Shown here: piece by piece, positions 4,930 through 25,370 of the stretch
How positions within the stretch are numbered: position 1 is the first letter of the stretch
Layout of the letters: each line of letters opens with the position of its first letter
Source: an uncultured Candidatus Melainabacteria bacterium
Lineage (GTDB): Bacteria > Cyanobacteriota > Vampirovibrionia > Gastranaerophilales > Gastranaerophilaceae
Length of the DNA: 39,091 nucleotides
Reading direction: 5' to 3'
Assembly (NCBI GenBank): GCA_949915775.1
Contig: CATLEG010000007.1
Location: 1 to 39,091, forward strand
The notes under the pieces: model-generated
What the model saw: the letters and a program-made list of their open reading frames with translations, nothing else
Told to the model about the DNA's origin: nothing
The model's database searches: none
Translations under genes and position numbers: made by a program

Positions 4930-5664
4930 TTACAACTTTATAACCGCACTATGTCTGTTTGTAGTCGCATTTTCTTTTCGATAAGAGAAAAACAAATCAT
5001 TATTACATACCGTACAGTAAGGACAAACATCAATATCTTTTACCCCTATTTCTTCAAGCTGGCGTTTGTTTATAGTTTTTAAATCAACAAATATTTCGCC
5101 TTTACGAATTTCAAAAAGCCCATCTTGAAGTTTTACGGTATCCATAAGTTTTTCATATACATCTTTTCCAACATTATAACAGCATAAAGATATTGCCGGT
5201 CCAATTGCACATTTTAATTCTTTCGGATTTGAACCAAATTCTTTCATCATTTTTTCAACAGTTTTAACAGCAATTTTACCGGCAGTGCCGCGCCAGCCGG
5301 CATGAGAAACTGCTGCAATATTATTTGATGAATCATAAATTATAACAGGTGTACAATCAGCAAAGTTCAAAAATACAGCTTGTTCTTTGTTTGTTAAAAT
5401 TAAACCGTCAGTATCAGGATAATTATTAATTCCGATTTTTGCGATATCGACATTCGATGTATGTGTTTGAGATGGATAAATAAGATTTTTTTCATCTATA
5501 TTTAAAAATTTACAAATATCTTTTTTATTTTCGCAAACAATAGCTTTAAAATCGGGTTCTTTTGTTTTTATAATACTTTCTCTTGTTGTAAAAAAATGAT
5601 TTAAACCCTCAAGTAATGAACTTTTTACAACTTTTTTCCCATTAATTTCATCAAAATAAAACAT
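4930..5664 (-). CDS. pgeF: Peptidoglycan editing factor / polyphenol oxidase family (YfiH)
   Basis: Family once called laccase-like; the E. coli member removes wrong muropeptide precursors and relatives act on purine nucleosides. Metal-site residues are visible: His68 (SQTHTSNV), Cys104 (FADCTPV) and His121 (SHAGWRGT), then AIGPAISLCCYNVG. Length 244 aa is typical. ATG 5664 matches the family start; an extended -10 (TGC-TATAAT at 5671-5676) lies exactly six bases before it and there is no Shine-Dalgarno, so the mRNA is probably leaderless. An upstream ATG at 5706 would add 14 unrelated residues and lies before that promoter. Confidence 0.9.
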   Translation of the reverse strand: MFYFDEINGKKVVKSSLLEGLNHFFTTRESIIKTKEPDFKAIVCENKKDICKFLNIDEKNLIYPSQTHTSNVDIAKIGINNYPDTDGLILTNKEQAVFLNFADCTPVIIYDSSNNIAAVSHAGWRGTAGKIAVKTVEKMMKEFGSNPKELKCAIGPAISLCCYNVGKDVYEKLMDTVKLQDGLFEIRKGEIFVDLKTINKRQLEEIGVKDIDVCPYCTVCNNDLFFSYRKENATTNRHSAVIKL

Positions 5665-9054: not shown

Positions 9055-9083
9055 TTGCTATTTGCAAGGTTTTATATCATAAT
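9055..9083 (+). promoter_or_regulatory. Promoter of the first prepilin gene
   Basis: TTGCTA at 9055-9060, a 17-base spacer and CATAAT at 9078-9083. Transcription would start near 9090, leaving a short leader that contains AAGGAGGGG. Confidence 0.55.
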
Positions 9084-9108
9084 GTATTGTAAGGAGGGGT
9101 TTTTAAGT

Positions 9109-9864
9109 ATGAGAAAATTCGGATTTACTTTAGCTGAAATATTGATAACTCTGGGAATAATAGGTGTAGTTGCAGCATTAACACTGCCTAGTTTAATAAC
9201 AAAACATCAAAAAAAAGTTGCAGCAACTCAACTTAAAGAAACATACTCAATTGTATATCAAGCCTTAGAAAGAGCAAAAGTTGAACATGGGGATTTTTCG
9301 ACTTGGGAGATGTACTATGGTCAGACATTAGGAAGTGATTATAAACAATACCTAAAAACAGTAGTTGATAAATATTTTATACCATACGTAAATACTAAAC
9401 AAAACATTGGATTTATATCATTAAAAAATCTAGGTTATGATAATATATACACTCTAGATGGTAAACCCTCCAGTTCTCGCTTAACAGAAACTTCTTATTA
9501 TGTTGTTCCTTTAAGTAACGGTTCTATTTTACGTTTTATTTTTGCTTCAGGTTGTCCTAGCGATGAATATATTACTGATGAAAACGGTAATAATATAGCC
9601 TGTAAAGGAGATGTAACAGCAGGTGATATTTTTGTATATATAGATATTAATGGTAGCAAAAAACCAAATACTGACGCTAAAGATATATTTGTAATGCGCT
9701 ATAATACTAATGGATTACAGTTTTGGGGATGTGAATTAAAAACACCTAACAGACGCCAGGAAATTTTAAACACACAATGTAAAAAAGGGGCTCATCGTAC
9801 AGGATACTGCGGATGTGTAATAATGCTTGACGGATGGGAAATTAAAGATGACTATCCTTGGTAA
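9109..9864 (+). CDS. Type IV prepilin-like protein (normal short leader)
   Basis: 252 residues beginning MRKFGFTLAEILITLGIIG. This is a class III signal peptide: Gly before Phe+1, Glu at +5, then a hydrophobic helix that anchors the protein until a prepilin peptidase cuts and methylates it. The rest has the usual long helix (AATQLKETYSIVYQALERAK) and a Cys-containing C-terminal head with DINGSKKPN and DIFVMRYNTNG, shared with the other prepilins here. AAGGAGGGG nine bases upstream fixes the start; upstream in-frame codons lack support. It is a pilin or pseudopilin; which machine it serves is not shown. Confidence 0.85.
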   Translation: MRKFGFTLAEILITLGIIGVVAALTLPSLITKHQKKVAATQLKETYSIVYQALERAKVEHGDFSTWEMYYGQTLGSDYKQYLKTVVDKYFIPYVNTKQNIGFISLKNLGYDNIYTLDGKPSSSRLTETSYYVVPLSNGSILRFIFASGCPSDEYITDENGNNIACKGDVTAGDIFVYIDINGSKKPNTDAKDIFVMRYNTNGLQFWGCELKTPNRRQEILNTQCKKGAHRTGYCGCVIMLDGWEIKDDYPW

Positions 9865-13078: not shown

Positions 13079-14137
13079 TTATTTCATGTTAATGAAATCG
13101 TGCCAATAATCCATACCATCTTTTTTGGGGTGTTTGTTTAAAAGTGCATAACCAGAACAAGTCACTTGAGCATGAATAGTATCAGAGACATTACAATAGT
13201 TTTTTTGTGGAGAAAAAATTTTATACTGTAATTCTCCGCCAATATAATCATTGCCAGAGTGAGGCTGTCCATAAGGTATAACAGACCCATCAACAGTAAA
13301 TACAAATGTAAATATGTCAACTCCACATAAATTAGGTCCTTTTTTACCATTTATATCAACACAAATATAAGGTCCATTAAAATTAGAATTATAAGGAGTA
13401 GAAATAGCAAACAATCTACCTTTTGTATCAACAAAATATCCGCCATCATTACATAGTGGAAAAGTTGTTGTTCTAGGTTTACCGCCTAAAAAACCTATAA
13501 GATAAGGTACAGTAGTATTAACACTAAGATTAATTTTTAAAACCTTAAATTCTTTTGAAATAGCAGATAAAAGTTGACGAGAATTATGTTCATTTGCATA
13601 ATCATGGATTGACATATCATTATGAATTTGAAACATTTTCGCAGTATTACCCAAATCACTGTATGTCTGTTTAAGTTGATTTTTTAAGACTTCAGTTTTA
13701 TAGTTATTAATTAATACCGGCAAAGTCAACGCCGCCACAATACCTATAATACCGAGGGTGATTAAAACCTCCGCTAAGGTAAACGCAGCACATTTTTCCC
13801 TCGCCCCTTGCGGGAGAGCGGATTTGACTTTGTTCCCTCTCCTAGGGAGAGGGTTAGGGAGAGGGTTTTTATCAGTATCTAAGACGTTAAGACGATAGGT
13901 CGATAAGTTCTTATCGTGTGCTACGCACGTAGCCCTGCCGGTAGATGTTGGTACAACTTTTATAGATTTTGCTGTAGGTTTCGCACTCGAAACACTTTTC
14001 CCTCGCCCCTTGAGGGAGAGGGCTAGGGTGAGGGGTAAATTGAGATTCTTCGCTCCGCTCAGAATGACTGAATGAGATACTGAATCAAGTTCAGTATGAC
14101 GTGTGTGTTTCATTAAATTTTCAATTATCTGTTTCAT
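13079..14137 (-). CDS. Prepilin-like protein with a 118-residue repeat-encoded leader
   Basis: The conserved core AAFTLAEVLITLGIIG begins only at residue 119 from ATG 14137, which has a good Shine-Dalgarno (AGGAAAG, seven bases). The leader is translated repeat DNA: HTELDSVSHSVILSGAKNL, NLPLTLALSLKGRGKS, GRATCVAHDKNLSTYRLN and NPLPNPLPRRGN, all in one open frame. Other prepilins need only 5-25 leader residues. Position -1 is Ala rather than Gly. The mature part of 234 residues has the pilin head features PFSLGxx-type Cys residues, DINGKKGPNLCGVDIFTFVF and a C-terminal Cys region. It may be processed inefficiently or used as a surface protein (inference). Confidence 0.75.
   Translation of the reverse strand: MKQIIENLMKHTRHTELDSVSHSVILSGAKNLNLPLTLALSLKGRGKSVSSAKPTAKSIKVVPTSTGRATCVAHDKNLSTYRLNVLDTDKNPLPNPLPRRGNKVKSALPQGAREKCAAFTLAEVLITLGIIGIVAALTLPVLINNYKTEVLKNQLKQTYSDLGNTAKMFQIHNDMSIHDYANEHNSRQLLSAISKEFKVLKINLSVNTTVPYLIGFLGGKPRTTTFPLCNDGGYFVDTKGRLFAISTPYNSNFNGPYICVDINGKKGPNLCGVDIFTFVFTVDGSVIPYGQPHSGNDYIGGELQYKIFSPQKNYCNVSDTIHAQVTCSGYALLNKHPKKDGMDYWHDFINMK
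13795..14100. repeat. Repeat mosaic inside the prepilin leader, copy A
   Basis: On the minus strand it reads, in order: a GTCATACTGAAC unit, GTCATTCTGAGC...GAAGAATCTC, CCCTCACCCTAGCCCTCTCCC, CATCTACCGGCAGGGCTACG, CGATAAGAACTTATCGACC and a second CCCTCTCCC block. The same order occurs at about 24060-24610, also in front of a prepilin core. Confidence 0.8.
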
Positions 14138-14339
14138 AATTTCTTTCCTTTCTTTTATTACATTATATTTATAATTACATGTAGTACCCCTCACCTGAAA
14201 TTCTAACTTTCGCATAATAGCTCAAGTTGAATTTCTTCCCTCTCCCGCAAGGGGCGAGGGGATTTGGCATTGTCCCCTCTCCAGGGGGGAGGGAGAGGGA
14301 GGGGGTTTTATTTTGATTACTTAACCTATAAATTAATGG

Positions 14340-14405
14340 ATTGCCGCGTCGCTTCGCTCCTCGCAATGACGTTACCTGAGATTCTTCGCTACGCTCAGAA
14401 TGACG
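14340..14405. repeat. Two adjacent palindromic repeat types
   Basis: TTGCCGCGTCGCTTCGCTCC followed by TCGCAATGACG, then GAGATTCTTCGCTACGCTC and AGAATGACG. Together with GC-rich CCCTCTCC blocks (14235-14305) they fill the 14216-14460 stretch. Confidence 0.75.
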
Positions 14406-14496
14406 GAAATTGGTAGACCCTTGGCCTACGCCGCTAACTTCTTCCAACGCATTATAAACTTCACTAATACCTAGGTGGAAGGTGTCTTCGACACTG

Positions 14497-14505
14497 CCCC
14501 CCCCC
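14497..14505. repeat. C9/G9 homopolymer tract
   Basis: Nine C on the plus strand, G9 in the minus-strand reading frame, between codons for NPV and the downstream SVEDTF frame. Long G/C runs are rare in such AT-rich DNA. Confidence 0.9.
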
Positions 14506-14577
14506 GACGGGATTTTTTACCAACAATCCAAACTTTTTCAACTCTTTTAGCTCACTCGAAAATCTTTTCATACATTT

Positions 14578-14606
14578 AGTTTAACATTTTAAGCAGTATT
14601 TTTCAA
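14578..14606 (-). promoter_or_regulatory. Promoter of the G-tract reading frame
   Basis: On the minus strand TTGAAA (14606-14601), 17-base spacer, TAAACT (14583-14578), then six bases to ATG 14571. The stretch 14572-14710 otherwise holds no gene. Confidence 0.5.
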
Positions 14607-23892: not shown

Positions 23893-23907
23893 ATGGAGGT
23901 ATAAATT

Positions 23908-23955
23908 ATGTTTAACAAAACTTCACATATCGCCCCCCCCCCATCGGCCGTTTAG
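23908..23955 (+). other. Strong start and short frame broken at a C10 tract
   Basis: GGAGG eight bases before ATG 23908 is the best ribosome site of the locus. The frame MFNKTSHIAPPPPSAV stops at 23953. The C10 run (23933-23942) lies inside it; with eleven or eight C the frame would instead run on into the prepilin core at 24621, giving a 238-residue leader. Confidence 0.6.
23933..23942. repeat. C10/G10 homopolymer tract
   Basis: Ten C in a row between an excellent start codon and the prepilin frame. On the minus strand the same spot reads ILAKRPMGGG, resembling LLVKNPVGGG at the G9 tract at 14497-14505. Confidence 0.9.
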
Positions 23956-23963
23956 CAAGGATT

Positions 23964-25370
23964 TTGGACTGGTTTAAATGTAAAGACTTCGTCATCCTGA
24001 GCAAAGCGAAGGATCTCAAACCCACCCCTACCCCTCCCTTACAAAAGGAGGGAACAAAAGAATTACGTCATGCTGAATTTATTTCAGCATCTCAATTCGT
24101 CATTCTGAGATGCCAAAGGCACTCTCCCATCAGGTGTTGGTATAATTTTAAATCGTCATTTCGAGTAGCGAAGAATCTCAATTTACCCCTCACCCTAACC
24201 CTGTCTTGGATTTGCTCCACGCTCACAGAGTTTCGCCAAAGTTGCTACGCAACAAAAGGCTCAATCTGTTCGCTATCCGGACTCGTTTTACTCCGTCCGT
24301 CCGCAAATTCGCTCTCCCTCAAGGGGCGAGGGGAAAGTGTTTTGTGTGCGATACCTACATCAAAATCTACAAAATCTTCACCAACATCTACCGGCAGGAC
24401 TACGTGCGTAAAACATATACCTGCACCTTTTAAGTCTTCACCAACATTTACCGGCAGGGCTACGTGCGTAGCACACGATAAGAACTTATCGACCTATCGT
24501 CTTAACGCCTTAGAGACTGATAAAAACCTTACCCATACCCTCTCCCGAATTTGTAAGTTCGCATTTAGCTCACTAACAAATTCTACCCTCTCACAAAGAG
24601 AGAGGGTAGAATGCCCAGCATTTACACTCGCAGAAACTCTAATCACCCTCGGTATAATCGGCGTTGTGGCGGCGTTGACGATTGCCCCGTTAGTTCAAAA
24701 ATACAGAATTAAACAGCTAGAAGTCGCTTTTAAACACTCTAGCTCTATGATTGAACAAGCTTTGCTTAAAACAGCTAATGAATTTGGTTATGGAAGTATT
24801 AAAGATTTAACAAAAATTTGCGGTTATCCTCATTTATTAGATAACAAAAATAATATAGATAATGAACATCCTAATACTATTTATTATAATAATTGTTTAA
24901 ACGAATACCAAACAAAAATCATTCCTGAAATGTACCAAGATTTTATTTCAAATTTTCATGTTATCAAAACTTATACATTTGAAGAGTGTATGAAACCTGA
25001 AAATTTTAGAAATAAATATACTTATACATACTATGGAAACAGACTTAGTGTTGTATGTGCGCTGCAGACTAATGATGGTTTTAATATATTAGAAAATGGA
25101 ATATCTATGACTCGTCGTTTCTATTTTTTATTCCATGGTTGGTATGATGGATTCACATTTGTTTTTGATACAAACGGACCCAACAAAGGGCCTAATAGAT
25201 TTGGTTATGATATTTTTATATACAATACAGGAAATTGGGGTGAAAGAAAATGTACCGCTAAAAATGTGGATACTTATGGACATAATAGTTATGCCTGTTA
25301 TGATTATGCATTGCAAGATAAAAATCCGGATGATGATACTAAAGGTTATTGGGAAAGTTTGAAATTATAA
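23964..25370 (+). CDS. Prepilin-like protein with repeat-encoded leader, frame probably set by the C10 tract
   Basis: As sequenced the longest frame starts at TTG 23964, which has no ribosome site; the likely true start, ATG 23908, is out of frame by one base. The prepilin core AFTLAETLITLGIIG begins at residue 220 of this frame (24621), again with Ala at -1. The leader translates repeat DNA: FVILSKAKDL, RHAEFISASQFVIL, NLPLTLTLS, GRATCVAHDKNLSTYRLN, the same blocks in the same order as in the 13079-14137 gene. The mature part has about 249 residues with DTNGPNKGPNRFGYDIFIYN and several Cys. It is either a switched-off gene, a decaying one, or initiates further in. Confidence 0.6.
   Translation: MDWFKCKDFVILSKAKDLKPTPTPPLQKEGTKELRHAEFISASQFVILRCQRHSPIRCWYNFKSSFRVAKNLNLPLTLTLSWICSTLTEFRQSCYATKGSICSLSGLVLLRPSANSLSLKGRGESVLCAIPTSKSTKSSPTSTGRTTCVKHIPAPFKSSPTFTGRATCVAHDKNLSTYRLNALETDKNLTHTLSRICKFAFSSLTNSTLSQRERVECPAFTLAETLITLGIIGVVAALTIAPLVQKYRIKQLEVAFKHSSSMIEQALLKTANEFGYGSIKDLTKICGYPHLLDNKNNIDNEHPNTIYYNNCLNEYQTKIIPEMYQDFISNFHVIKTYTFEECMKPENFRNKYTYTYYGNRLSVVCALQTNDGFNILENGISMTRRFYFLFHGWYDGFTFVFDTNGPNKGPNRFGYDIFIYNTGNWGERKCTAKNVDTYGHNSYACYDYALQDKNPDDDTKGYWESLKL
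24203..24318. repeat. tRNA-linked repeat blocks inside the prepilin leader
   Basis: GTCTTGGATTTGC, CTCCACGCTCACAGAGTTTC, CTCAATCTGTTCGCTATCCG and CCGTCCGCAAAT match the element beside tRNA-Leu (21059-21245). The insertion splits the CCCTAACCCT...CCCTCAAGGG block that is continuous in copy A. Confidence 0.65.

Follow-up and report, generated by a model that had tools for sequence, protein, structure and literature searches.

The question raised by this locus is whether a homopolymeric G tract that closes a reading frame beside a prepilin gene acts as a genetic switch. The window, meaning the whole stretch of 39,091 nucleotides that was analysed, has G/C runs of at least nine at just two places, with 0 expected in 100 shuffles. 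The best-supported reading of the sequence comparisons, to which we assign a probability of roughly 0.7, is that such tracts subject a very large family of prepilins, OFF by default, to slipped-strand phase variation. The mechanism is a known one; what is unusual is its scale, its register and its strand polarity. The features of the first locus (locus 1) are the following.

14571 to stop 14464–14466, minus strand: short frame from ATG 14571, OFF as assembled, 35 aa, MKRFSSELKELKKFGLLVKNPVGGGQCRRHLPPRY
14497–14505, minus strand: G9 tract, inside a type IV prepilin leader
14175–14571, minus strand: longer frame, obtained with a tract of 8 or 11, 131 or 132 aa
13079–14137, minus strand: prepilin with its own SD-like AAGGAAAG and ATG 14137; PF07963 match
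13082–13783, minus strand: mature part of this prepilin, FTLAEVLITLGIIG...
14578–14606, minus strand: promoter-like site, TTGAAA 14606–14601, 17-base spacer, TAAACT 14583–14578

The earlier note had described a frame that starts at ATG 14571, meets the G9 tract and stops soon after, and had claimed that one G fewer would add 96 residues. Both statements are borne out: the frame is closed as listed, and in silico removal of one G gives 131 aa, the added 96 residues starting SVEDTFHLGISEVYNALEEV. The opened frame ends at 14175, short of the prepilin start at 14137, and there is thus no fusion in this copy. Because of this early end, and because the prepilin comes with a separate SD-like site and start codon, the copy may be decayed or may act by translational coupling. 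The match of the 13079–14137 protein to Pfam N_methyl (PF07963, the N-terminal cleavage/methylation motif) has an E value of 6.2e-05. A prepilin structure model (mean pLDDT 85.7) has a helix at residues 3–55 followed by strands; its best PDB match with Foldseek is gonococcal pilin 1ay2 (E 0.19), and no match was significant. The TAAACT of the promoter-like site sits six bases before ATG 14571, so near that a leaderless mRNA is predicted.

The second tract of the window belongs to another prepilin (locus 2), and a third prepilin provides an ordinary comparison.

23908–23942, plus strand: start and tract of locus 2, OFF as assembled, GGAGG 23895–23899, ATG 23908, 15 aa
23933–23942, plus strand (G's on minus): C10 tract in the sense strand of the prepilin leader MFNKTSHIAPPP, read as MFNKTSHIAPPPIGRLARILDWF...
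23964–25370, plus strand: prepilin ORF, in frame with ATG 23908 when the tract has 11 C's (487 aa) or 8
24621–25367, plus strand: mature part of the locus 2 prepilin
9055–9864, plus strand: third prepilin, short leader MRKFGFTLAE without a tract

PF07963 also matches the 9055–9864 protein; the 23964–25370 protein has no Pfam match at 0.001, despite reading FTLAETLITLGIIG. The leaders of loci 1 and 2 (13790–14450 and 23964–24620) are enlarged by dispersed repeats of the HSERSEES, HAELVSAS and LSLKGRGES types, and such repeats preserve the frame in several copies in this genome.

It had been proposed that LLVKNPVGGG at locus 1 and ILAKRPMGGG on the minus strand at the C10 tract are matching peptides. 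The second peptide is literally present, but it is antisense to the leader of locus 2, whose sense strand, the plus strand, has the tract as C10 (MFNKTSHIAPPPIGRLARILDWF...); the likeness is therefore probably a coincidence, and homology between the two peptides was rejected. The loci share a G/C tract inside a prepilin leader, and no peptide. The matching peptide contexts thus drop out of the earlier argument that two homopolymers beside prepilins are unlikely by chance, but its conclusion is upheld by about 25 ATG-to-tract units and by the occurrence of tracts of at least nine G in 32 of 33 genus genomes. The idea that a frame beside a prepilin depends on tract length and has homologues elsewhere is likewise supported: a search of relatives for length variants found leaders ending in NPVGGG in other species (L071 with G9, L073 with G10), and the in-frame versions that had been sought are present as G11 copies.

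A DNA search with 14250–14600 gave 75 matches, from which 25 distinct ATG-to-tract units (family 1) were obtained after duplicates were removed. Their tract length is 9 in six units, 10 in 15, 11 in three and 12 in one, and the longest frame is that of length 11 (equal to 8) in 22/25, across leaders of differing repeat modules. The three exceptions are L022, with one base extra before the tract, L023, to which the script assigned another ATG, and L007, which runs off the contig end. A plain mobile repeat was considered as the origin of the tract and was rejected, since tract and register are constant while the flanks differ. In L025 (548 aa) and L028 (419 aa) the opened frame reads straight into the prepilin; the proposal that the tract-driven frame always fuses with the prepilin was rejected on the early stops at locus 1, L021 and L037. 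A −35-like element (TTGA..), 16–18 bases, a −10-like element and 5–7 bases to the ATG are found in 19/25 copies, and for units with this promoter-like arrangement a leaderless message is predicted. Pairwise single-base codon differences among the leaders are 30/268 and 54/75 (synonymous/nonsynonymous, two length classes); they reveal no clear protein constraint and fit a leader that is kept open yet not conserved. The C-tract family of locus 2 (MFNKTSHIAPPP) has eight copies, six of them at C10; a C9 copy, L297, is in frame with its prepilin.

The scale of the system is clearest in a near-complete relative of 1.9 Mb (G007), which has 77 tracts of at least nine G, 73 of them exactly 10. A tract lies at most 250 nt upstream of 74 of its 98 prepilin-motif sites, the message carrying G in 53 and C in 21, and once the motif is widened to admit YTLAE, each of the 77 tracts has a prepilin downstream, three of these prepilins being large (617–766 aa). 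The leaders begin at an SD-preceded ATG, for example MKRF...GGGGNLELAPQG... or MFIQEALRVPPPPRN.... The tract-poor genus genomes G023, G012 and G027 have 15, 10 and four prepilin sites, whose leaders are short and ordinary (MKKGFTLAE is an example), and no tract was found in the leaders examined in these three. Across the family, C-G10-C occurs in 39/146 genomes sampled, with high counts in this genus, in g24 and in a few others. Contrary to a universal length of exactly 10, G002 has 329 nine-G words but one C-G10-C. In L165 (Candidatus Gastranaerophilus phascolarctosicola) the tracts at 5054, 8567 and 11606 on the minus strand are G12–G13, longer than elsewhere, and are preceded by a near-identical context, ACATGCA (one partly masked). 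G062, of another genus, carries a distinct tract family, AC-G10-CACAGGCNTAGTCTC (L338, L339), in the same register; four of its tracts share it, out of five seen, the fifth being without a prepilin in reach.

The register of these tracts was counted for 132 prepilin tracts with an SD-preceded ATG, taken from G007, G025 and the first-listed one or two tracts of each other genus genome; the last set may repeat one G007 and one G025 tract (L193, L191). Left out were three G007 rows and one G025 row without an SD-ATG, one ambiguous G025 row, and 21 tracts without a prepilin in reach. In the pooled set 117/132 tracts are G10 or C10 and one base short of the frame, six are in frame, and for 125 the frame is open at lengths of 2 mod 3. 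The in-frame counts are 0/71 in G007, 4/40 in G025 and 2/21 in the other genus genomes (binomial p against 1/3 of 3e-13, 6e-4 and 0.013); because the rows are related by descent, these p values overstate independence. G015 is closely related to G007, as a sister (95% at one locus); of its 23 fetched tracts, 21 have ten G's and lack one base, another has nine, and the single tract in frame has eleven. At the usual assembled length of 10 the prepilin frames are therefore closed.

A uniform length of 10 could arise if sequencing or assembly undercalled tracts that are truly 11, in which case all genes would simply be in frame. Poly-G of 8 or more does lead to errors and broken contigs in short-read data, as PMC4235727 states. 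We consider an undercall very improbable, as calls of G9, G11 and G12 occur too, copies with G11 do read in frame and the pattern repeats in many genomes. Further, four non-prepilin genes of other genus genomes, assigned to surface polysaccharide by Pfam, carry C-G10-C in frame as assembled, which speaks against a systematic undercall.

L070, 459–1721: polysaccharide pyruvyl transferase with in-frame G10
L185, 1102–2061: glycosyltransferase with in-frame G10
L078, 1402–2124: glycosyltransferase with in-frame G10
L328, 1765–2886: acyltransferase with in-frame G10

The same counts bear on programmed frameshifting, the chief competing reading, in which the tract would be fixed at 10 and slippage of the ribosome (−1) or of RNA polymerase (+1) would yield a little of every pilin. 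That most tracts, whether in G-mRNA or in C-mRNA, are exactly 10 and one base short is what such a site would give, as is the retention of 10 in most orthologue pairs (below). Length and offset are nearly fixed in G007, where 67/71 tracts are G10 needing one more, as against lengths of 9–12 in family 1. The register persists, however, at tract lengths 9, 11 or 12, a similar G10 is in frame in the four polysaccharide genes, G10 and C10 messages would need equal slippage, and the confinement of the G's to one replication strand is left unexplained. Frameshifting is accordingly judged unlikely.

An in-frame ATG follows the tract in 16/44 long leaders of G007 and in 28/42 of G025, some of them behind TATAAT, and a tract-independent start is therefore possible for these leaders. 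Leaders of G025 (for example L307, L305 and L306) contain TGCTATAATAGTGATATGAAACATCA, an extended −10-like site that is partly palindromic and lies just before the in-frame ATG; TATAAT is present in 22/36 sense long leaders of this genome. The extended site is perhaps a second, leaderless start.

Comparison of homologues indicates that tract length toggles the frame. In each of three G025 pairs (L318/L315, L322/L313 and L325/L307) the flanks are near-identical, and the G11 member is in frame while the G10 member is not. Nine G007/G015 orthologue pairs with long flanking matches were hand-picked from 24 listed; G10 is kept in eight of them and one changes from 10 to 11 (L278 G10, L410 G11). The toggling follows from these near-identical paralogues and this orthologue pair, which differ by one G without compensation. 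As in contingency loci, the tracts are homopolymers of about eight or more bases in the 5' part of a coding frame, and uncompensated, frame-changing length differences are found among homologues (the G025 pairs, L278/L410 and family 1). The four polysaccharide genes, which are of classical contingency kinds, carry the same type of tract. In L252/L402 and L257/L386, two of the nine orthologue pairs, the sequences match at about 94%, but the match is lost some 100 bases into the prepilin and picks up again past its end. Leader, tract and flanks are retained at about 93–95%, while the body beyond the N-terminal helix is replaced. Since homology breaks off inside the prepilin and resumes after it, the pilin body either has been exchanged or has diverged beyond recognition, as far as the alignments indicate; antigenic exchange between the sister species is possible.

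The tracts are also ordered along the chromosome. Neighbouring tracts change strand in 2/71 cases in G007, 4/47 in G025 and 2/28 in G019, and in each genome 0/10,000 shuffles gave a value as low. Unlike the G's of the tracts, the prepilin genes of G007 change strand in 46/92 neighbours. Both tracts of the window obey this polarity, with G on the minus strand and oppositely directed prepilins. The polarity is a DNA-level property. GC skew over 4 kb on each side of the tract is positive on the G strand for 67/77 tracts in G007, 40/50 in G025 and 22/31 in the others; leading strands are GC-skew-positive, and we infer from the skew that the G strand is the leading strand. The G007 tracts are flanked by C (76/77 before, 73/77 after). 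RGCTY follows about 8–11 bases past the G's on the G strand, in 51/56 and 33/37 tracts whose gene reads G (2.6 and 1.6 in shuffles) and in 13/21 and 6/6 whose gene reads C (0.9 and 0.2 in shuffles).

These observations could reflect a replication-polar DNA element (C-G10-CR-N5to7-RGCTY) for recombination or strand-specific repair, with a secondary effect on the frame. Such an element would account for the replichore-like polarity, for RGCTY lying on the G strand in both gene orientations far above shuffles, and for the replaced prepilin bodies. It would leave the uniform register unexplained, and the tracts are restricted to prepilins and a few surface genes. A chromosome-polar motif of the KOPS or Chi type, spread regardless of gene type, was likewise not seen in G007, where every tract precedes a prepilin. 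The extended motif is partly due to shared descent of the paralogous leaders, and RGCTY is weaker in other genomes (8/17 and 3/7). A primary role as a DNA element is thus also unlikely; for the extended motif we propose a role in strand-dependent slippage or repair.

Phase variation therefore remains our preferred reading. The tract in the cleavable leader would be a switch, one of a genome-wide set. Replication slippage would turn 10 into 11 (or 9 into 8) in rare cells, which would then make that pilin, so that each pilin gene would be OFF in most cells while the population displayed many pilin combinations. Prepilin peptidase cleaves off the leader, and the leader may tolerate the tract and inserted repeats because it is removed in this way. 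That the OFF register is fixed suggests selection for rare, combinatorial pilin display. Because the G's stay on the GC-skew-positive strand whatever the gene direction, slippage or its repair may depend on replication direction.

Counting against this reading, tract length is sharper than simple slippage gives: 73/77 tracts are G10 in G007, and stationary lengths computed from the C. jejuni rates of PMC8224891 place 24% at 10; eight of the nine orthologue pairs, moreover, retain G10. The possible tract-independent starts of some long leaders, and the opened frame of locus 1 that falls short of its prepilin, also weigh against it. The near-constant 'one short' over 'one too many' is a bias that phase variation does not demand. 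Ordinary slippage alone does not account for the strand polarity, for lengths so sharply set at 10 or for a register so uniform. We tentatively suggest, as a possible though doubtful extension, that C-G10-CR with RGCTY is a dedicated strand-dependent switch, in which replication direction would set slippage and about 75 pilin genes per genome would be held one base short and opened singly, a tract-length-encoded choice of pilin.

The hosts of these putative switches are uncultured gut commensals related to cyanobacteria. A literature search lying mostly outside subscription journals turned up no account of Gastranaerophilales phase variation and none of tracts with replichore polarity. With its strand polarity the system lends itself naturally to testing whether the mutability of contingency loci is set by the direction of replication.

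Three known systems invite comparison. The poly-G/C contingency loci of Campylobacter jejuni are alike in having G/C runs near 10 inside the coding frames of surface-structure genes; PMC8224891 gives 12–29 genes with G7 to G13 tracts per genome, whereas here one 1.9-Mb genome (G007) has 77 tracts, almost all on prepilins, nearly all OFF as assembled and strand-polar. Phase-variable pilC of Neisseria likewise has a frame-switching poly-G/C tract in a pilus gene. For N. meningitidis, N. gonorrhoeae and N. lactamica, PMC5953494 gives 15.4–19.4 poly-G tracts per genome; the carriers there are pilC and glycosyltransferases, in contrast to the large prepilin family here. If the present reading is true, few sets of homopolymer switches on a single protein family would be larger, as judged against the Campylobacter and Neisseria figures alone. 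Antigenic variation of gonococcal pilE resembles the present case in pilin diversity, pilin bodies being replaced here in 2/9 orthologues. It differs in that pilE is one expressed gene with silent pilS copies (PMC5953494), whereas here the genes are numerous and separate, and each has a start and a tract of its own.
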